The notes beneath the pieces are model-generated. The model searched no databases. It was given only the letters and a program-made list of their open reading frames with translations, and was not told where the DNA came from. From Limnobacter litoralis (GTDB taxonomy: Bacteria; Pseudomonadota; Gammaproteobacteria; Burkholderiales; Burkholderiaceae_B), in NCBI RefSeq assembly GCF_030160455.1, contig NZ_BSOJ01000032.1, forward strand, positions 1 through 64,000: a stretch of DNA of 64,000 bases, in the 5' to 3' direction. Position numbers and translations under genes: made by a program. Positions 20,715 through 29,082 of this stretch are shown here, in pieces; positions within the stretch are counted from its first letter, which is position 1; each line of letters opens with the position of its first letter.

Positions 20715-20791
<77 letters not shown>

Positions 20792-20821
20792 TCAAAGACA
20801 TCCTGTAATGGGACTACATTT

Positions 20822-20898
20822 CTGCCCGTAGCTCAGCTGGATAGAGCATCGGCCTTCTAAGCCGAGGGTCAGGGGTTCGAGTCCCTTCGGGCAGGCCA
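20822..20898 (+). tRNA. tRNA-Arg (anticodon TCT)
   Basis: Acceptor CTGCCCG pairs with CGGGCAG. The anticodon stem TCGGC/GCCGA encloses loop CTTCTAA, giving anticodon TCT for AGA/AGG codons. T-loop GGTTCGAGTCC is present and CCA is encoded. It lies 30 bp after tRNA-Pro. Confidence 0.97.
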
Positions 20899-20914
20899 AG
20901 AAATTTTCCCCAGT

Positions 20915-20991
20915 GGCGGGGTTAGCTCAGTTGGTAGAGCAACGGATTGTGATTCCGTGGGTCGTGGGTTCGAGCCCCATACCTCGCCCCA
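20915..20991 (+). tRNA. tRNA-His (anticodon GTG)
   Basis: The anticodon stem ACGGA/TCCGT encloses loop TTGTGAT, anticodon GTG. The acceptor GCGGGGT pairs with ACCTCGC (one G-T pair), and the histidine-specific extra G(-1) at 20915 pairs with C73. CCA is encoded at 20989-20991. Confidence 0.97.
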
Positions 20992-20998
20992 AGAATTC

Positions 20999-21035
20999 AA
21001 GGACTTAGCGTGCATTTGCCGCTAGGTCCTTTTTG
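20999..21035 (+). terminator. Rho-independent terminator of the tRNA operon
   Basis: AAGGACTTAGCG pairs over its full 12 bp (one G-T pair) with CGCTAGGTCCTT, followed by TTTTGTTTTT. Confidence 0.9.
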
Positions 21036-21131
21036 TTTTTGGGGTGCCGTTTTTATTTTCGATTGTGCGCAATAGTGGTTGCTCTGCCCGCAACCCGGTT
21101 TAAGCAAGCCTTGCAACCCCAAGCCTGTCCC

Positions 21132-22529
21132 TTACGCTTGTTCAGATTTTCTGGGCATGTGGCTTACCGTTTCAGCAATAATCTGCAGTGCATGTTCAAC
21201 ACGGTCTTCATTCAGGTTGCCACCCAAGCAAAGCCTGACTGAATTGGGCGTGGTCCCTTGCAGGCAGAACATTTCTGCGCTGGCAGTGGTGATGCCACGG
21301 CTTAAAAGGCGTGAACAAAATGCCGAATGTGTCCAATAAGAGGGTAGGTTGAGCCACAGGTGGAACCCCTCCGGATTTGTTTCGATGTTGAAGTCACCCA
21401 GAGTGCGTTTTGCAAGAAGCTGTCTTTTTTGGCTCATGGTTTGAATACTTTGCAGACACAGTTGAGCAGTGCCATCCAGAATCCATTGTGTGGCCACTGC
21501 AATGCACAAGGGGCTTGCCATGATTTCGCTGGCCCGCAAAGTGGAAGCCAATCTGTTGGTTTCATTTGCATTGGGGCAAACGAGAAAGCCGATACGGAGC
21601 CCTGCTCCGACTGTTTTCGAGAGTCCACTGACGTAGTAGGTCAGCTCTGGCACAATGTTGGCAAATGTTGGGGGCGGGCTTTTCATCAACTTGTTGTAAG
21701 GGTCGTCTTCAATGATTTTCAGTCCGAATTGCCTTGCAACTGCAGCGATCTCAAAGCGCCTGTTTTCGGAAATGGTTCGTGTGGTTGGGTTTTGAATGGT
21801 CGGGTTTAAATACAGGGCTTTGACGGTGTGGATGCGGCATTGCGCCTCTAAATCGTCTGGCAGAATGCCTTCATTGTCTGAGCGCAGTCCGATTGTCTTG
21901 ATACCAAAGTGTCTAGCCATGGTTTTAACGCCCGGGTAGGTTGTGCCCTCTGCGCACAGTGTGCCGCCAACACCAACCAAGGCCAGCATCAGGCTATTCA
22001 GGGTGGCTTGAATGCCAGGGGTAATCAACACAGTTTGACCAGTCTGAGCCGGGTAAAGTCCTTCCAGCCAGGTTGCGGCAGCAGCCCGAGCATCCTCATT
22101 TCCACCCAATTCCTGATAGCGGGTTAGTCTGTGGAAATTGCCTTGTTCTGTGACATGGCGAATGCCATGGCGCATGCGTCCGAGAATTTCAGGCTCCTGA
22201 GGTTCGGGAGCCACATTCATGGTCATCTCAATAAGGTCTGAACTTGGAACTGCGTCGGCCGTGTTTTCTACCTTGATGTAACTGCCTACACCCGATTTGG
22301 AAGCAATCAGGCCGCGATGTTGCAGCTCGTGATATGCGCGAGCGACGGTCGTGTAGTCAAGGTGCAGGGCGGCTGCCATGTCTCGTAGAGTGGGTAGTTG
22401 ATCATCTCGCTTGAGCATCCCTTCGCGAATTTTTTCTTCAATGAATTCGGCAATCAGCAAATAGGCAGGCTGGCTTCGATCCGCCAAGGCATTTTGCAAT
22501 TCTTCCAGTATTTCAGGATGCTTTTTCAT
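21132..22529 (-). CDS. MocR-type transcriptional regulator (GntR HTH fused to aminotransferase fold)
   Basis: A 465-residue protein with an N-terminal GntR-family winged helix (PTLRDMAAALHLDYTTVARAYHELQHRG, written here as the HTH core at residues 45-72) fused to a fold-type I aminotransferase domain that binds PLP, with the expected lysine in SGLSKTVGAGLR. MocR proteins sense PLP or amino compounds and activate or repress divergent genes. The start ATG 22529 was chosen because CAGG lies 8 bp upstream; an earlier in-frame start at 22571 has none. It is divergent from the Nit1C cluster across 281 bp, so it is the natural candidate regulator of that cluster. Its DNA site may be the tandem repeat at 22683. 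Confidence 0.9.
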   Translation of the reverse strand: MKKHPEILEELQNALADRSQPAYLLIAEFIEEKIREGMLKRDDQLPTLRDMAAALHLDYTTVARAYHELQHRGLIASKSGVGSYIKVENTADAVPSSDLIEMTMNVAPEPQEPEILGRMRHGIRHVTEQGNFHRLTRYQELGGNEDARAAAATWLEGLYPAQTGQTVLITPGIQATLNSLMLALVGVGGTLCAEGTTYPGVKTMARHFGIKTIGLRSDNEGILPDDLEAQCRIHTVKALYLNPTIQNPTTRTISENRRFEIAAVARQFGLKIIEDDPYNKLMKSPPPTFANIVPELTYYVSGLSKTVGAGLRIGFLVCPNANETNRLASTLRASEIMASPLCIAVATQWILDGTAQLCLQSIQTMSQKRQLLAKRTLGDFNIETNPEGFHLWLNLPSYWTHSAFCSRLLSRGITTASAEMFCLQGTTPNSVRLCLGGNLNEDRVEHALQIIAETVSHMPRKSEQA

Positions 22530-22682
22530 GCGCGTTACCTGTGCTTTTACATTCCATATGGGTGCAAGCAACTAACGCGCCTGAGCAAATGCCCACTTCG
22601 GGTGCGCAAAATTCTGCGGTCATCAATGGAATGGCGCTGACAAGTTTGATCTGCCGTTTGCTGCAAAGCGGCATGAATTCGT

Positions 22683-22704
22683 CTTGATTGGATCTTGATT
22701 GGAT
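22683..22704. promoter_or_regulatory. tandem 11-bp direct repeat, candidate MocR operator
   Basis: Two perfect, head-to-tail copies of CTTGATTGGAT lie between the divergent MocR-type gene and nitB. MocR/GabR/PdxR regulators commonly bind direct repeats, and an 11-bp period puts both half-sites on one face of the helix. The rest of the 281-bp intergenic region holds no convincing -35/-10 pair. Confidence 0.55.
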
Positions 22705-22810
22705 GAGATTCCGCTGAATGGGTACGCCCATTGCACCTTGTTGCCTGTGCTCCGACACAGTGCAAATCACGTCAGGATGCCAATTTCTAGTTGAATCAGG
22801 AGATCAGACA

Positions 22811-23293
22811 ATGCCTAAGGTAAATCATCCCGCCCATGTTGATGGCGATTATTTTGTGGATTACGAAGAGAAGGTTTTTGAGGATGTGAAGGCTGAGCCG
22901 GGACAAAAGGCTCTGGTGACTTTTCACACGGTTGCGTTCGAGGGATCAATTGGGTTTGTCAATATGTTGCAGGCCACCCGCTTACAGCGTAAAGGTTTCG
23001 ATACGTCCATTTTGTTGTATGGCCCTGGAGTCACCTTGGGTGTGCAACGTGGCTTCCCCACGCTGGGTAGTGAGGCGTTTCCAGGTCATTTAAACTTCAA
23101 CAACCAGCTTAAAAAATTCATGGGCGAGGGCGGGAAGGTGTATGCCTGCCGCTTTGCGCTGCAAGCCCTTTACGGCCATGGAGAGCCCTCATTGATCGAA
23201 GGCATTACCCCAATCAATCCATTGGATGTTCTGGACGTGGTTCTGCTCCACAAGCGAGATGGTGCAGTGATTATCGACACCTGGACTTTGTAA
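22811..23293 (+). CDS. nitB: Nit1C cluster protein NitB (MSMEG_0572/sll0783-like)
   Basis: First gene of the Nit1C cluster; a 160-residue soluble protein of the nitrogen-starvation family typified by MSMEG_0572. The ATG follows AGGAGATCAGACA; the reading frame extends 93 bp further upstream but without a better start. The central part, [21 protein letters not shown] and [16 protein letters not shown], resembles DsrE-like small alpha/beta folds, but no catalytic motif can be named. In cyanide-utilising bacteria this product is reported as strongly induced with the nitrilase. The gene precedes nitC by 58 bp. Biochemical function is unknown. Confidence 0.82.
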
Positions 23294-23351
23294 GCAGACT
23301 AGGAATTGGTCGCCCTTGGGCGACCGGTTCAAGCCGCTTGGAGATTAGACA

Positions 23352-24308
23352 ATGAATCAGGCAAAAATGGTTAGGGCAGCTGCCGTGCAGATTGCGCCCA
23401 ATCTGGTGGAGCCGGAAAAAACCATCGAAAAGGTGTGTCAGACCATGGCAGAGGCTGCTTCCAAGGGGGTGCAAATCATTGTCTTTCCGGAGACTTTCGT
23501 GCCGTATTACCCCTATTTTTCATTTGTTGAACCGCCAGTAAAGCAGGGAAAGGATCACCTGCGCCTCTACGAGTATTCAGTTTCCATTCCGGGAGCGGAA
23601 ACGGAAATGGTTGCTGCACTTGCAGCCCAGCACAATATGACGGTGGTGCTGGGGGTGAATGAACGTGATCACGGCACTTTGTATAACACTCAAATGATTT
23701 TCGACGGCGAGGGCCAGTTACTTCTGAAGCGTCGAAAAATCACGCCGACCTACCACGAGCGAATGATTTGGGGGCAGGGCGATGGCTCTGGTTTGAAAGT
23801 GGTGCAAACACCTATCGGCCGAGTGGGCGCCCTCGCTTGCTGGGAACATTACAACCCCCTGGCTCGCTATTGTTTGATGGCGCAGCACGAGGAAATTCAC
23901 TGTGCGCAGTTTCCAGGGTCATTGGTGGGGCAGATTTTTGCCGACCAGATGGAGGTCACCATTCGACACCACGCGCTCGAAGCGGGTTGCTTTGTGATCA
24001 ACAGCACTGCATGGCTGACTGAAGATCAGATCAATAGTATTTCGCAGGATGCAGACCTGCAAAAGGGGCTCCGTGGCGGCTGCTTTACAGCAATTGTCAG
24101 TCCGGAAGGCAAGTTGCTGGCTGAGCCCTTGCGAGAAGGTGAGGGCATGGTGATCGCCGATCTGGACATGTCTTTGGTAACCAAACGCAAGCGAATGATG
24201 GACTCGGTTGGGCATTACGCCCGGCCCGAATTGTTAAGTCTGCTTGTTCATGAGGAGTCAACCAGCCCCATGAAATCAGTGAAAGGAGATTGCCATGCTC
24301 AGTACTGA
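23352..24308 (+). CDS. nitC: nitrilase of the Nit1 subfamily (NitC)
   Basis: Carbon-nitrogen hydrolase that converts a nitrile to the acid and ammonia. The catalytic triad is intact: Glu47 in [13 protein letters not shown], Lys129 in [12 protein letters not shown] and Cys163 in [12 protein letters not shown]; the second active-site glutamate follows in TYHER. It has 318 residues, typical of Nit1 enzymes such as the Synechocystis nitrilase. GGAGATTAGACA precedes the ATG. Its stop overlaps the start of the radical-SAM gene by 14 bp, showing tight coupling. The natural substrate is unsettled; cyanide-derived nitriles are the favoured idea. Confidence 0.93.
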
Positions 24309-25371
24309 ACTTCAAACCCATGGGCTTCGCCTGGAAGACCCGCTGGCGGGCAGTCAAAGCAGGCGAGGCGGTGCAGGGCCGTCCGATCACAAGGCCGTAA
24401 CCATCGATGGTGAGACCGTGATGATTCCAGTTCACACTCACTCGGCCTGGCAGTCTCCTTACCTCGCTGCCAAGCCGGATGAAAACGGAAAAAGCCGCTT
24501 GTTGAAAAATGGAATTCCGATTGCTGTCATCGAATTTCCGCAAAAGCCACGGTTTTATTCCTTGAAAACTGCGGATGGCATTGCCTACGACAAGATTGCA
24601 ACACTGCATAGTAAAGACGTGTTGGCAACCACCGTGTTGCAAACCTGTATTCGCTATGAAAGCCGTGTAAAAACCTGCAAATTTTGCTCGATCGGGCAGT
24701 CACTTGCCGCCGGCCGAACCATCGAGCGCAAAACCCCGGAGCAGTTGGCTGAAGTGGCCAGGGCTGCTGTTGAATTGGATGGCGTGAAGCAGATGGTAAT
24801 GACCACAGGTACGCCACCAACGCCTGATCGCGGTGCTGCGTTGATGGTCGAGAGCGTGGCTGCTGTAAAAGCAGCAGTGGACATCCCCATTCAGGTTCAG
24901 ATTGAACCACCTGACACCTTTGAATGGTTTGTCAAATTGAAACAAGCAGGCGCGGACAGTTTGGGTATGCATTTGGAGGTTTTGTCCGAGCCATTGAGAA
25001 AGTGGTTGATGCCGGGCAAATCCAATGTGACTGTCAACGAATATCTGGCGGCGTTCGATGCCGCTGTAGCAGTGTTTGGCCGAGGGGAAGTAAGCACCTA
25101 CATCATTGCAGGTTTGGGCGACACCGAATCAGAAATAGTCGAAATGAGCCGCGTGTTGATTGATAGGGGTGTGTATCCCTTTGTGGTTCCCTTTGTACCG
25201 ATCAGTGGCACGCCTCTGGAAAGTCATCCGGTCCCCGATGCCGAGTTTATGCAACGCGTGTTACAGCCTATCGGGCAAATGCTGAAGGATGAAGGTCTGT
25301 TGTCAGCGGATACGAAGGCGGGGTGTGCCAAATGCGGTGCATGTTCCACGCTTAAATCTTTTGAGCAATGA
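24295..25371 (+). CDS. nitD: radical SAM protein of the Nit1C cluster (MSMEG_0568-like, NitD)
   Basis: A 358-residue radical SAM protein. Three cysteines positioned to hold the 4Fe-4S cluster are Cys118, Cys128 and Cys131, spaced CX9CX2C rather than the classical CX3CX2C. The partial TIM barrel follows ([15 protein letters not shown], then [14 protein letters not shown]). A second cysteine set, CX2CX2C, lies at the very C-terminus (344, 347, 350) and may bind an auxiliary cluster. AAAGGAG precedes the ATG, inside the nitC end. The reaction is unknown; position between a nitrilase and an acetyltransferase suggests it builds or modifies the nitrile-containing substrate. Confidence 0.9.
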
Positions 25372-25392
25372 GTTCACGGGGAGGCATGATTC

Positions 25393-25968
25393 ATGATGTT
25401 TGACGCCGTACCAGCCGATCCGTTTCAACACGGTGAATGCAGAATCAAGCTTGCTGACGGTGAGTGGGAGCTCAGGCAGGCTCAGTCCCTTCGCAAGCGT
25501 GTGTTTGTGGAGGAGCAGCAAGTGTTCCGGATCAGTGATTTTGACCATCTGGACCATGACGCTTACACCCTGATCGCCACCACTTCCATGCTGGGTATCC
25601 CTGATTCAGTGGTGGGTACCGTCAGAATCAATCAGACAGCCAGGGGAAAGTGGCAGGGTTCCAGATTGGCTGTTGACGCCATGTATCGGCACTCTAGCGG
25701 TATCGGGAAAGACTTGATCAAGATGGCGGTTGGTACTGCGCTGACGCTGGGATGTGAGTCTTTTTATGCCAATGTCCAATTGCAAAATCAGGCGTTCTTC
25801 GAGAGGCTTGGCTGGTGTGTACTCGGCCATGTACTTGTTGAAGGTTTGGATCATGTGTTCATGCAGGCCAACCTGAACCTTTACAGCCCTGCGCCTGATC
25901 CAAACCATGGCTGCTTTCATTTGTTCAGCAAGGCATTGCCACCTGAAAAGTCCAGGAATAAAGCATGA
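25393..25968 (+). CDS. nitE: GNAT N-acetyltransferase of the Nit1C cluster (MSMEG_0567/sll0786-like, NitE)
   Basis: A 191-residue GNAT-fold acyltransferase. The acetyl-CoA segment is visible as LAVDAMYRHSSGIGKDLIKMAV, followed by YANVQLQNQAFFERLGW, the standard motif A/B region. It also shows VRINQTARGKWQGSRLAV before the CoA loop. GGGGAGG lies before the ATG. Its stop overlaps the next start as ATGA. Substrate unknown; the gene always travels with the nitrilase and radical SAM genes in this cluster type. Confidence 0.87.
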   Translation: MMFDAVPADPFQHGECRIKLADGEWELRQAQSLRKRVFVEEQQVFRISDFDHLDHDAYTLIATTSMLGIPDSVVGTVRINQTARGKWQGSRLAVDAMYRHSSGIGKDLIKMAVGTALTLGCESFYANVQLQNQAFFERLGWCVLGHVLVEGLDHVFMQANLNLYSPAPDPNHGCFHLFSKALPPEKSRNKA

Positions 25969-26972
25969 ACGAGCTGGCCTCTATCGTCGAGATGGTGCGA
26001 CAAAGCAAAGGGATTGCCCACAAGCGGGACATCGAATTGGGTATGCGAGCCATTGCACAGACGCAATCTTGCGAGACCTCCGTTTTAGTCGGTGATGATT
26101 GCGCTGTGATTCCCTCGGGCGAGGGTTATCTCTTGTTCGCCATTGAGGGGTTCATGAATGAATTTGTTCAGGAGGACCCCTGGTTTGCAGGCTATTGCGG
26201 CGTCATGGTGAATGTCAGCGACATTGCGGCCATGGGTGGAAGGGCCACGGCTGTGGTGGATGCTCTGTGGTGCTCAAAGCCCGATCAATTGGCGCTTATT
26301 TTACAAGGCATGGCATGTGCCTCTGCCCGATACCGAGTGCCGATTGTTGGTGGTCACACCAATGCCCGCACTGACAGAAATCAACTTGCAGTGTCCATCT
26401 TGGGCTCGGCCAAATCAATCTTAAGCAGCTTTGAGGCGCAACCCGGAGACGCTTTGATGTGTGTGATTGATACGCGTGGCGAGTATCGCGGCAACCTCGG
26501 AAACAATTGGAATGCCAGCACGGACGCGCCTGCGGATCGCTTGCGAGGCGATCTTGAATTGTTGCCGCTGATTGCAGAATCAGGTTTGGCGAGCGCTTGT
26601 AAGGACATCAGTATGGCGGGGCCTTTGGGAACTCTTTTGATGCTTTTGGAATGTTCTGGATGCGGGGCTGAAATTGATCCAGAAGCGTTTCCGCGTCCCA
26701 AGCACATTGGACTGGAACGCTGGATGCAGACCTTTCCCAGTTATGGGTTTGTCTTCAGTGTGTCTCCTTCACGGGTGGAGGAGATGAAACATCTATTTGG
26801 CGCCAGAGAGTTGCAATGCTTGGTAGTCGGCCAGGTAACCGCCGGTTCCCAAGTGTGGCTTGCCAATTCAATCGAGCGCGAGTTGCTGTGGGATTTTTCA
26901 ACGACGGCTTTGTTGGGTTGCAGTGCTTTGAATTCTGCCGGCGAAATGCAGGGGGTGCGCAAATGCCAATGA
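25965..26972 (+). CDS. nitF: AIR synthase-related protein of the Nit1C cluster (sll0787-like, NitF)
   Basis: A 335-residue protein of the PurM/SelD/ThiL superfamily, whose members phosphorylate or activate carboxyls and amides with ATP. The N-terminal part has VGDDCAVIPSGEGYLLFAIEG, like the ATP-loop of PurM-type proteins, and VNVSDIAAMGGRATAVVDAL is the conserved nucleotide segment; PIVGGHTNARTD follows. Together these suggest ATP-dependent activation in the pathway. It overlaps nitE by 4 bp and nitG by 10 bp. Actual substrate not known. Confidence 0.87.
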   Translation: MNELASIVEMVRQSKGIAHKRDIELGMRAIAQTQSCETSVLVGDDCAVIPSGEGYLLFAIEGFMNEFVQEDPWFAGYCGVMVNVSDIAAMGGRATAVVDALWCSKPDQLALILQGMACASARYRVPIVGGHTNARTDRNQLAVSILGSAKSILSSFEAQPGDALMCVIDTRGEYRGNLGNNWNASTDAPADRLRGDLELLPLIAESGLASACKDISMAGPLGTLLMLLECSGCGAEIDPEAFPRPKHIGLERWMQTFPSYGFVFSVSPSRVEEMKHLFGARELQCLVVGQVTAGSQVWLANSIERELLWDFSTTALLGCSALNSAGEMQGVRKCQ

Positions 26973-27247
26973 CGCAGTTCGATCTTCAGTGGCCTGATGG
27001 TTCCGTCATGAAATGCCACTCTCCTTCAACGATCATTCGGGATTATTTGGTTGTGGGCAAGGAGTACACGCTGGCCGACTTTCTGGAGTGTGCAGAAAAA
27101 GGACTCGGTCATGCCAGTGAACGTGTGCGTGAGAAGTACGGATTTGCCTGCTCTATGGCGGCTGATCAATGGGATCTTATTCGCATTCAGAGCGATAGGT
27201 ATCAGGCTGTGCCAGCGGCCAAGGTGCAGATATTAAGAATCAAGTGA
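26963..27247 (+). CDS. nitG: small Nit1C cluster protein (MSMEG_0570-like, NitG)
   Basis: A 94-residue protein matching the MSMEG_0570 nitrogen-starvation family: FDLQWPDGSVMKCHSPSTII near the N-terminus and YLVVGKEYTLADFLECAEKG after it. ATG 26963 is preferred because GGGGG at 26950-26954 is spaced for it; the open frame reaches further back, but that part is a shadow of nitF. It overlaps nitF by 10 bp. No enzymatic motif is visible; a partner or chaperone role is possible but unproven. Confidence 0.82.
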   Translation: MPMTQFDLQWPDGSVMKCHSPSTIIRDYLVVGKEYTLADFLECAEKGLGHASERVREKYGFACSMAADQWDLIRIQSDRYQAVPAAKVQILRIK

Positions 27248-27257
27248 GGGGTTGAAT

Positions 27258-28538
27258 ATGAATGCTCAGGGAACAAAGTTAAAGGCGCATTACAAGGTGG
27301 TGGTAATTGGTGGAGGGCAGGCAGGTCTGTCAATGAGCTATCAATTGACGCAACGGAAAATTGACCACGTGGTGCTGGAAAAAGCCAGGATTGGCTTCAG
27401 TTGGCGGGAACAACGGTGGGATACGTTTTGCCTGGTGACGCCGAACTGGCAATGTAACTTGCCTGGATTTCCTTACGCTGGCATCGAGCCCCATGGCTTC
27501 ATGAAGAAAGATGAGATTGTTGCCTACATTGAGTCCTATGCGAGGTCATTCAGGGCGCCCGTCTTTGAAGGGGTGTCAGTCACCCGCTTGCGTAAAAGCG
27601 ATGACGGGCTGTTTGTACTGGAAAGCACAGCGGGCACAATTTCTGCCAATCAGGTTGTTGTGGCGATAGGTGGATATCACAAGCCTAGAATTCCGAGTCT
27701 GGCGAAAAAGTTGCCTGCGCACATTCGACAAATTCATTCTTCTGAATATCGAAGCCCTGAACAACTTCCCGATGGCAAAGTGTTGGTGATCGGGTCGGGT
27801 CAGAGTGGATGTCAAATTGCCGAAGACCTGCATTTGGCGGGTCGTAAGGTGCATTTGTGCGTGGGTAGCGCTCCGCGAGTGGCGCGTCGTTACCGGGGTC
27901 GGGACGTTGTGGATTGGCTGGCTGACATGGGTTATTACGACATGCCCGTGGACGAACATCCTTTGAAAGAAGGGGTACGTGCCAAGGCCAACCATTACGT
28001 CACTGGTCGCGATGGCGGCCGTGACATCGATCTGCGATTACGAGCTCTCGAAGGGATGTCTCTGCATGGCCGTTTGAAAGACTGCAACGAGGGAGTAATG
28101 CTTTTTGCCGATGATCTGGCGGCCAATTTGGACAATGCGGATCGAAGCAGCGAGAACATCAAAAATACGATTGACCAATACATTGCCGATCGTCGTCTGG
28201 ATGCACCACTGGAAAATCGCTACTTGCCGCTTTGGAAGCCCAATCCAGGCTGCTCTACGCTCGACCTCGTGGCTGAGCAGGTCTGCTCTATCGTTTGGTC
28301 GGTCGGCTTTGAAAGTTCATTTGACTGGATCGAATTGCCTGTTTTTGATGGCAGGGGGTATCCGATTCATTCGCGGGGTGTTAGCTGTGAGTCCGGCTTG
28401 TATTTTCTCGGCCTGCCTTGGATGTACACATGGGGATCTGGACGCTTTTCAGGCGTGGCCCGCGATTCCGCGTTTCTTTTGGAGAAAATTGAGCTGGAAT
28501 GTTTTACCAAAGCAGAGGAAATTGACTCTTCACTTTAG
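27258..28538 (+). CDS. nitH: flavin-dependent oxidoreductase of the Nit1C cluster (MSMEG_0569-like, NitH)
   Basis: A 426-residue flavoprotein resembling FAD-dependent N- or Baeyer-Villiger monooxygenases. The FAD Rossmann motif is VVIGGGQAGLSMSYQL near the N-terminus and a second NAD(P)H-type motif is VLVIGSGQSGCQIAEDL. GAGGGG at 27246-27251 is well placed for ATG 27258. It closes the cluster, and a perfect hairpin follows. An N-oxygenase would fit a pathway producing or consuming a nitrile or cyanide-related group, but this is inference. Confidence 0.88.
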   Translation: MNAQGTKLKAHYKVVVIGGGQAGLSMSYQLTQRKIDHVVLEKARIGFSWREQRWDTFCLVTPNWQCNLPGFPYAGIEPHGFMKKDEIVAYIESYARSFRAPVFEGVSVTRLRKSDDGLFVLESTAGTISANQVVVAIGGYHKPRIPSLAKKLPAHIRQIHSSEYRSPEQLPDGKVLVIGSGQSGCQIAEDLHLAGRKVHLCVGSAPRVARRYRGRDVVDWLADMGYYDMPVDEHPLKEGVRAKANHYVTGRDGGRDIDLRLRALEGMSLHGRLKDCNEGVMLFADDLAANLDNADRSSENIKNTIDQYIADRRLDAPLENRYLPLWKPNPGCSTLDLVAEQVCSIVWSVGFESSFDWIELPVFDGRGYPIHSRGVSCESGLYFLGLPWMYTWGSGRFSGVARDSAFLLEKIELECFTKAEEIDSSL

Positions 28539-28554
28539 ATTTGAATACAAAAGT

Positions 28555-28585
28555 CAGGGTTTGATTATCAAATCATCAAACCCTG
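28555..28585. terminator. perfect hairpin between nitH and infA (likely bidirectional terminator)
   Basis: CAGGGTTTGAT and ATCAAACCCTG form a perfect 11-bp stem with a 9-nt loop, located between two convergent genes. The U-tract is weak on both sides (CTTTT on the minus strand), so termination strength is uncertain. Confidence 0.65.
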
Positions 28586-28603
28586 CCCATTTGTCTGAAT
28601 CAA

Positions 28604-28867
28604 TCAGTAACGCCGAGCCCGATTGTTTGGGCCGCTGTTGCGTGGCGTATCGAGGTGACGGAAGGTGATTCGGCCTTTGCTGAGGTCATACGGCGACAGC
28701 TCGAGCGACACACGGTCACCCGCAATGATGCGGATGTGATTCTTGCGCATTTTGCCTGCGCTGTATGCAATCAGTTTGTGACCGTTTTCAAGGGTAACCT
28801 TGAAACGTGAATCTGGCAGAATTTCATCCACCATTCCGTTCATTTCCAACAATTCTTCTTTGGCCAT
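28604..28867 (-). CDS. infA: translation initiation factor IF-1
   Basis: An 87-residue S1-like OB-fold protein that blocks the ribosomal A site during initiation. The sequence [20 protein letters not shown] and [18 protein letters not shown] are characteristic. The C-terminal extension after FRHLDTP ([12 protein letters not shown]) is longer than in E. coli IF-1. Many betaproteobacteria carry a second infA in the ribosomal-protein region; this copy is the one linked to a cold-shock gene 11 bp upstream, which suggests co-expression on temperature downshift. Confidence 0.93.
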
Positions 28868-28878
28868 GTGTTGGCCTT

Positions 28879-29082
28879 TTACGCGTTGCGAATGTTGGAT
28901 GCCTGTGGGCCTTTGGCGCCCTGAGTGACGTCGAATGTCACTTGCTGTCCTTCGGACAGGCTTTTGAATTCAGAGCTTTGAATGGCTGAGAAATGGGCGA
29001 AAAGATCTTTGCTGCCATCGGATGGAGAAATGAAGCCGAAACCTTTTGAATCGTTAAACCACTTTACTGTACCTGTTGTCAT
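28879..29082 (-). CDS. CspA-family cold-shock protein
   Basis: A 67-residue single cold-shock domain. RNP1 is KGFGFI and RNP2 is [22 protein letters not shown] is the standard opening. The ATG at 29082 is preceded by AGGAGTGTCAAAA on the minus strand; the frame runs on upstream but without a site. It acts as an RNA chaperone or antiterminator. infA is the next gene on the same strand, so the two form an operon. Confidence 0.95.

Follow-up and report, generated by a model that had tools for sequence, protein, structure and literature searches.

The Nit1C cluster, a set of seven genes that includes a nitrilase gene, is in itself ordinary and has been known since 2005. The same seven genes in the same order are described in Burkholderia and Rubrivivax, where a glycosyltransferase is encoded between ORFs (open reading frames) 5 and 6 (PMC1199592). 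In Pseudomonas oleovorans (pseudoalcaligenes) CECT 5344 the nitBCDEFGH order is again the same, the nitrilase belongs to the same family and a regulator gene is divergent from the cluster (PMC11049912). Cyanide assimilation is stated to require NitC, which hydrolyzes a 2-hydroxynitrile made from cyanide (PMC11049912); in Pseudomonas its substrate is described as the cyanohydrin of oxaloacetate. Homologous genes under nitrogen-starvation control make up the gpr cluster MSMEG_0565-0572 and the Synechocystis sll0783 cluster, after which the NCBIfam models are named. The tie of the cluster to nitrogen starvation and cyanide, which an earlier note on the present locus had pointed out as published, is upheld by the literature.

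Here we analyze the Nit1C cluster of Limnobacter litoralis in a stretch of 64,000 nucleotides (contig NZ_BSOJ01000032.1, positions 1 to 64,000), hereafter the window. The divergent regulator of CECT 5344 is NitA, a Fis-type sigma-54 activator (PMC11049912); in the window its place is taken by a MocR-type protein, and the DNA between the regulator gene and nitB carries an NtrC-like site and, ahead of the promoter, tandem repeats. What is new is this conserved NtrC/MocR/sigma-54 region, which the earlier note had missed and of which we found no description for nit1C in the open-access literature searched; a passage of Podar 2005 reports no conserved binding sites upstream of the cluster (PMC1199592). 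Judging from sequence comparison, the locus is probably a nitrogen-scavenging operon with a sigma-54 promoter that is activated by NtrC and RpoN under nitrogen starvation and gated by a MocR responding to a signal through pyridoxal 5'-phosphate (PLP).

The control region upstream of nitB

The analysis was based on a survey of 110 partly overlapping loci. Named genomes gave more than 572 NitB matches, of which the 80 best are among these loci. The placement of mocR was also examined in 30 loci drawn from sampled genomes. Upstream regions of at most 450 bp before nitB were taken from 111 places (the 110 loci and the window). After removal of 10 near-duplicates, 92 had a divergent nit-MocR gene, 3 had mocR elsewhere and 6 were without it.

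Sigma-54 promoters have the consensus core TGGCAC-N5-TTGC. A strict version of this pattern (TGG[CT]A[CT]-N5-TTGC) is present in 73 of the 92 loci with divergent mocR (50 dinucleotide shuffles: mean 0.26, maximum 2), and a relaxed version in 84, compared to 1.5 in the shuffles. A wider pattern, sought within a fixed interval and without a shuffle background of its own, is found in 89 of the 92; two of the three remaining loci have TCGC at -12. These three (L063, L098 and L117) were left out of the geometry counts, which refer to the other 89. When the loci were thinned to less than 80% NitC identity (41 loci), 29 strict and 39 relaxed promoters were counted. The site reads TGGTACAGGCATTGC or TGGTACAGGCGTTGC in the other Limnobacter loci, and rpoN is present in the genome. 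A dedicated sigma-54 activator encoded in the window was considered and rejected: the search found none there, and the one match on the contig is at 130730.

Upstream of the promoter lie the tandem boxes that we propose as the MocR operator. Their consensus is TTGATYGSAT, and the core TGATYGSA has 254 matches in 81 of the 92 loci, compared to 14.2 matches in the shuffles. Slightly relaxed units are found 24-26 bp upstream of the promoter in 55 of 89 loci and 35-37 bp upstream in 36; 30 loci have both registers and 61 have either, with a background of about 1.1 loci per slot. The thinned set retains 20 proximal and 15 distal boxes. We also searched the exact pair TGATYGSA-N3-TGATYGSA throughout the genome of the window and those of 29 sampled nit1C carriers. 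It has a single match in each of 12 genomes, 11 of these at nit1C, and occurs once in the window's genome. The reversed pattern has zero matches in the same 30 genomes. In the operators described for MocR proteins the repeats are one or several helical turns apart (PMC5320631), and the supplementary tables of that study, which cover 86 MocR groups, may list this operator. The 11-bp tandem repeats fit such spacing, and MocR would be the protein that binds them.

The third module is a palindrome. NtrC sites follow the consensus TGCACY-N5-RGTGCA and are situated upstream of sigma-54 promoters. Palindromes matching at least 10 of the 12 consensus positions are found in 37 of 89 loci (2.6 in the shuffles) and in 16 of 39 loci of the thinned set; in the other five Limnobacter loci they match 11-12 of 12 at a matching distance. 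Distances between palindrome and promoter span 106-195 bp and are helically phased, with a period of 10.6-10.75 bp and R of 0.86. With the 18 unique distances alone, the observed value was attained in 0 of 2000 uniform simulations. In the 20 loci with weak matches, R was 0.41 at 10.5 bp.

The perfect palindrome occurs at 3 places in the window's genome and at 14 across six Limnobacter genomes, two of the 14 being at nit1C (G008 and G009), and the reversed control occurs at one place, in G015. In the window's genome, one perfect copy lies 111 bp before a sigma-54 site that is followed by a PF09694 gene, a P-II gene and an amt gene. A second lies about 80 bp before another ammonium-transporter gene (above the Pfam cut-off, below that of TIGR00836), and the third lies elsewhere. 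Because perfect copies precede P-II/amt and ammonium-transporter genes, this distribution supports NtrC as the protein that reads the palindrome in the genus Limnobacter. The genome encodes NtrC (696 bits, NCBIfam cut-off 558.6).

Two further blocks of columns are conserved among the six Limnobacter loci: one around GTGCAAGCAACTTGCGCGCCCG near the mocR start (22562-22583), less kept in the window, and one around CGACACAGTGCAAATCAC in the nitB leader (22750-22783).

The six loci without a detected nit-MocR (calls required at least 34% tblastn identity) served as contrast. The relaxed promoter matches in 0 of 6 and the strict box in 1 of 6. In L066 a PAS/sigma-54-activator/Fis protein, the build of NitA, is encoded divergently; the locus lacks the box and has a sigma-54-like TGGCACAGCCTTCGC. 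Three Methylobacter loci (L128, L129, L137) have neither promoter match nor strict box, L129 having one relaxed box unit on the opposite strand; in L129 and L137 a different, distant (22%) GntR-PLP gene is divergent from nitB. A cyanobacterial locus (L143) also has neither promoter nor box. Two loci that had not been used to derive the motifs agree with this pattern. One with MocR (L170) has the promoter and the proximal box in register, and one with no MocR match within the 1.5 kb examined (L169) has a strict promoter and no box.

The cluster, its regulator and its setting

All seven proteins of the window score above the curated NCBIfam cut-offs, and their genes lie in the order nitBCDEFGH on the + strand at 22811-28538 (Table 1). 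The scores, with cut-offs in brackets, are 283.3 bits (109.85) for NitB against TIGR04044, 569.5 (502.6) for NitC against TIGR04048, 580.5 (303.7) for NitD against TIGR04043, 172.1 (68.45) for NitE against TIGR04045, 432.9 (321.3) for NitF against TIGR04049, 107.8 (79.85) for NitG against TIGR04042 and 654.3 (498.35) for NitH against TIGR04046. The earlier note had named the locus a Nit1C cluster and had suggested comparison with these models; the comparison bears it out in full, gene order included.

Table 1 Features of the nit1C locus in the window
Feature	Position	Strand	Basis
mocR, encoding a regulator of the GntR/MocR type that has a PLP-type domain; divergent from nitB; 465 aa from ATG 22529	21132..22529	-	PF00392 and MocR-type models
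Degenerate NtrC-like palindrome, 9/12 consensus positions	22590..22606	n/a	palindrome scoring
Two direct copies of TTGATTGGAT in tandem, 11 bp apart, as proposed operator of MocR; cores at 22685-22692 and 22696-22703	22684..22704	+	
Sigma-54-like promoter GGGTACGCCCATTGC, two mismatches to TGGCAC-N5-TTGC	22720..22734	+	relaxed pattern only
nitB, DsrE-like protein, one invariant Cys (C113)	22811..23293	+	NCBIfam, Foldseek, alignment
nitC, Nit6803-family nitrilase, Cys163 invariant	23352..24308	+	NCBIfam, alignment
nitD, radical SAM protein	24295..25371	+	NCBIfam, alignment
nitE, GNAT acyltransferase-like	25393..25968	+	NCBIfam
nitF, AIR-synthase/PurM-like protein	25965..26972	+	NCBIfam, alignment
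nitG, small MSMEG_0570-family protein, Cys61 invariant	26969..27247	+	NCBIfam, structure model
nitH, MSMEG_0569-family flavin-dependent oxidoreductase, start TTG 27252 or ATG 27258	27252..28538	+	NCBIfam

Three start codons were revised by the starts of homologues. The likely start of NitB is ATG 22811 rather than the ORF start at 22718, that of NitG is ATG 26969 within an ORF beginning at 26816, and that of MocR is ATG 22529 within a divergent ORF spanning 21132-22571 on the - strand. With these starts, nitC and nitD overlap by 14 nt, nitE and nitF by 4 and nitF and nitG by 4, nitG and nitH are 4 nt apart, and gaps of 58 nt (nitB-nitC) and 21 nt (nitD-nitE) remain. The seven genes are likely an operon. 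The description "tightly overlapped unit" given before thus holds in the main, most of the genes overlapping or lying close. The cluster was also called complete, which is true by the seven-gene definition. In 48 of 102 loci with both genes detected, the distance between nitF and nitG exceeds 900 bp, and the intervening gene in one locus examined encodes a Pfam Glycos_transf_1 protein. Such variation between nitF and nitG was already described by Podar 2005 (PMC1199592). The window has no gene at this place, and differs in this from the Burkholderia and Rubrivivax clusters.

The divergent regulator matches PF00392 (GntR) above the cut-off and MocR-type models along nearly its full length. Among the 25 listed of 49 matching NCBIfam families none is above its cut-off, the best named match being EhuR (379.6 bits, cut-off 480). 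By these profiles it is a MocR-type protein and none of the named regulators listed. It joins a GntR-type helix-turn-helix to an aminotransferase-like domain with conserved K305, as in the MocR subfamily. N247, D275, Y278, K305, R312 and R432 are each kept in at least 97% of 94 nit-linked homologues. After fold-type-I aminotransferases we take these to be PLP and carboxylate contacts, K305 presumably being the PLP lysine and R432 the carboxylate-binding arginine. Searches with NCBIfam and Pfam profiles found no AAA+ domain in the protein.

In the 30 sampled loci mocR is upstream and divergent in 28 (2 kb away in L050); it is codirectional in L055 and absent from L066. Of the 110 loci, 100 have a divergent mocR and 4 have it at another place, while 6 gave no match at 34% identity; the MocR arrangement thus prevails in the sample. 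This agrees with the earlier suggestion that the divergent gene is the likely regulator. In a midpoint-rooted tree of 94 sequences and nine other MocR-like proteins the nit-linked MocRs cluster together (support 0.85), except that one other MocR, from L092, falls inside the group.

With regard to the operon proteins, NitB resembles DsrE only weakly by sequence (E 0.049, under the Pfam cut-off; 3mc3, E 1.1), so a structure model was needed. In the AlphaFold model (predicted local distance difference test, pLDDT, 70; predicted template modelling score, pTM, 0.71) the first six PDB matches by Foldseek are all DsrE/F-like, with a best E of 2.2e-4 and two at E of 0.001 or less. They include YchN, which we take to be DsrE/F-like. 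The single Cys of NitB is invariant in 101 sequences. By modelled fold and conserved Cys, NitB is thus placed in the DsrE family, a kinship already stated for Sll0783 (PMC3901256) and MSMEG_0572 (PMC6039565). Two cysteine motifs of NitD, CX9CX2C and, at the C-terminus, CX2CX2C, show no variation in 99 sequences. Against the model of methanogenesis marker 2 NitF reaches 241 bits (cut-off 365), a hint of ancestry or chemistry shared with a methanogen protein. NitG has two conserved Cys, and its model (pLDDT 94) has no match in the PDB at E 0.001 (best E 1.5), so we assign no function; it is possibly an undescribed small fold.

The NitB family was detected in 5 of 15 other Limnobacter genomes examined. 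Above the cut-off it was found in 14 of 399 genomes of the order, 16 of 398 of the phylum and 4 of 369 of the class, each count including the window's genome. In the window, nit1C follows a tRNA-Pro/Arg/His cluster (20715-20991) and lies in a G+C dip (21000-29000, about 0.50-0.54 compared to 0.57-0.61 in most flanks). Of seven genes that flank the cluster here, none has a match in the roughly 10 kb around nit1C of five other Limnobacter genomes; the window itself served as positive control. A shared insertion site across the genus was therefore rejected, and the result suggests separate acquisition or movement. In a plasmid collection, NitB homologues occur on 515 plasmids, 374 of them from Klebsiella; for 438 of all 515 the identity to NitB of the window is 80-90%. 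One Klebsiella plasmid carrying the cluster was already named by Podar 2005 (PMC1199592).

Proposed regulation and its alternatives

From the protein families, the conserved sequence modules and their geometry, which are directly observed, we infer the following course of events in Limnobacter. Under nitrogen starvation, phosphorylated NtrC at the upstream enhancer would drive sigma-54 transcription of the nit operon. MocR would bind the two tandem TTGATYGSAT boxes, one helical turn apart and directly upstream of the promoter; placed between enhancer and promoter, it could hinder looping or contact with the closed complex. Most likely MocR blocks productive contact between NtrC and RNA polymerase until it is altered by a signal bound to PLP, which could be a cyano-amino acid or cyanide itself in reaction with PLP. 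The operon would then act as an AND gate for nitrogen hunger and cyanide or nitrile. NitC would hydrolyze a nitrile to carboxylate and ammonia, with NitB, NitD (radical SAM, second Cys3 motif), NitE, NitF, NitG and NitH catalyzing or aiding supporting steps.

The repressive sign is suggested by analogy to CECT5344, where MocR is the proposed repressor of the cio/nit4 cluster and its loss makes cio-cluster proteins, including Nit4, constitutive according to proteomics marked as unpublished (PMC8567248). In P. aeruginosa the MocR-type MpaR mediates the induction by cyanide, and PLP-cyanide is proposed as effector (PMC10790758). The earlier note had suggested an amino compound as signal, which is possible given the conserved R432, but in view of MpaR an action of cyanide on PLP is no weaker a candidate. 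We put forward only tentatively that the nit1C MocR senses cyanide directly, cyanide adding to PLP and thereby releasing or licensing the NtrC-driven promoter, and that this is the usual form in the Pseudomonadota loci examined, with NitA replacing it in some. In the open-access literature searched such a chemical cyanide/NtrC AND gate is described for no MocR protein.

Several observations weigh against the proposed NtrC/MocR control. The window's own sites are poor: its promoter has two mismatches and is found by the relaxed pattern only, and its NtrC-like site scores 9 of 12. No site of at least 10 of 12 is found in 52 of 89 loci, and 28 of 89 have no box at either register; of 27 boxless loci listed, at least 13 are from named Alphaproteobacteria, several with variant or shifted repeats. 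The exact box pair is missing from 18 of 30 genomes, and one of its 12 matches (G534) is away from nit1C. L135, scored as lacking MocR, has boxes, but its 3.9-kb contig contains only 453 bp ahead of nitB. Two loci with mocR downstream (L110, L113) retain boxes without a relaxed promoter match, and L055 has promoter and palindrome with no box. The lack of relaxed promoters extends to all six MocR-less loci, the L066 site having TCGC at -12. Moreover, the motifs were first spotted by eye in the very sequences on which the later counts were made, and site positions are shared among related loci.

The sign of MocR action could also be the opposite, with ligand-bound MocR serving as co-activator of the sigma-54 promoter by bending DNA or recruiting. 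The fixed register of the boxes just upstream of the promoter would suit this, and MpaR acts positively (PMC10790758), whereas MocR of CECT5344, the nearest cyanide-cluster case, is described as a putative repressor (PMC8567248). Since MocR of the window has no detected AAA+ domain, it could not itself open the sigma-54 complex. Opening of that complex needs a protein with such a domain. We regard co-activation as doubtful. An activator other than NtrC might act at the phased palindrome, given the five strong sigma-54 activators in the genome (three compared with NCBIfam) and the many loci with no good palindrome; this appears unlikely, as two of the three perfect palindromes of the genome are at ammonium-transporter loci, one with a P-II gene.

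With regard to what the operon does, a serious rival or complement to nitrile scavenging is redox/NADPH balance under nitrogen starvation as the main role, with nitrile hydrolysis secondary. The Synechocystis sll0783 (NitB) mutant is more oxidized, with NADPH/NADP measured (PMC3901256), and a glnR mutant regains peroxide resistance when the gpr cluster (MSMEG_0565-0572), which is GlnR-dependent, is expressed in it (PMC6039565). Both phenotypes are reported without added cyanide and so add to the points against our proposal, and the DsrE-like fold of NitB and the flavoprotein NitH suit a redox role. Against it, NitC is described as indispensable for the assimilation of cyanide (PMC11049912). 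The nitrilase was detected in 110 of 110 surveyed loci, and Glu47, Lys129 and Cys163, presumably the catalytic residues, are kept in at least 97% of 98 NitC sequences. We judge it rather unlikely that redox balance is the main role. Very unlikely, in our view, is the pathway making its own nitrile that the earlier note had envisaged, in which NitF would dehydrate an amide and NitC hydrolyze the product. NitF is PurM-like, and HypE provides a precedent in its superfamily. HypE-type nitrile synthases require a C-terminal carbamoyl-accepting Cys. None is conserved in 95 NitF sequences (Cys334 of the window is found in 1%, the nearest other Cys, at position 319, in 37%), so we rejected a HypE-like amide-to-nitrile step. 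Nor do the family matches listed for the seven proteins include any enzyme named as nitrile-forming.

Comparison with described systems

If the proposed NtrC/MocR control is true, a MocR operator lies within a sigma-54 promoter, an arrangement of which we found no report in the open-access literature searched. The control region is the part worth following up. It gives Nit1C, in the most frequent form of our sample, a concrete promoter model with sigma factor, enhancer protein and operator. With it, cyanide sensing by PLP proteins can be tested at one more locus in addition to MpaR and the cio cluster of CECT5344.

Compared with MpaR-ccoN4 of P. aeruginosa and MocR-cio/nit4 of CECT5344, the locus shares a MocR-type regulator with a proposed tie to the cyanide response. 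The MpaR motif is palindromic (PMC10790758), whereas the boxes of the window are tandem direct repeats, and the passages describing these two systems mention no sigma-54 promoter, unlike the sigma-54-like promoter proposed here. The cynFABDS cyanate cluster of CECT5344 likewise provides for a nitrogen source, has a sigma-54 promoter and is controlled by ammonium, but it has its own Fis-type activator, CynF, and a cyanase rather than a nitrilase (PMC6627978). Among homologous clusters, gpr of M. smegmatis is under GlnR (PMC6039565, PMC4222082) and the sll0783 cluster of Synechocystis is up on nitrogen starvation (PMC3901256), whereas we propose NtrC/RpoN and MocR for the window. The comparison suggests how a single cluster is kept under nitrogen control across phyla, through GlnR in mycobacteria, as published, and through NtrC/RpoN, as proposed here.

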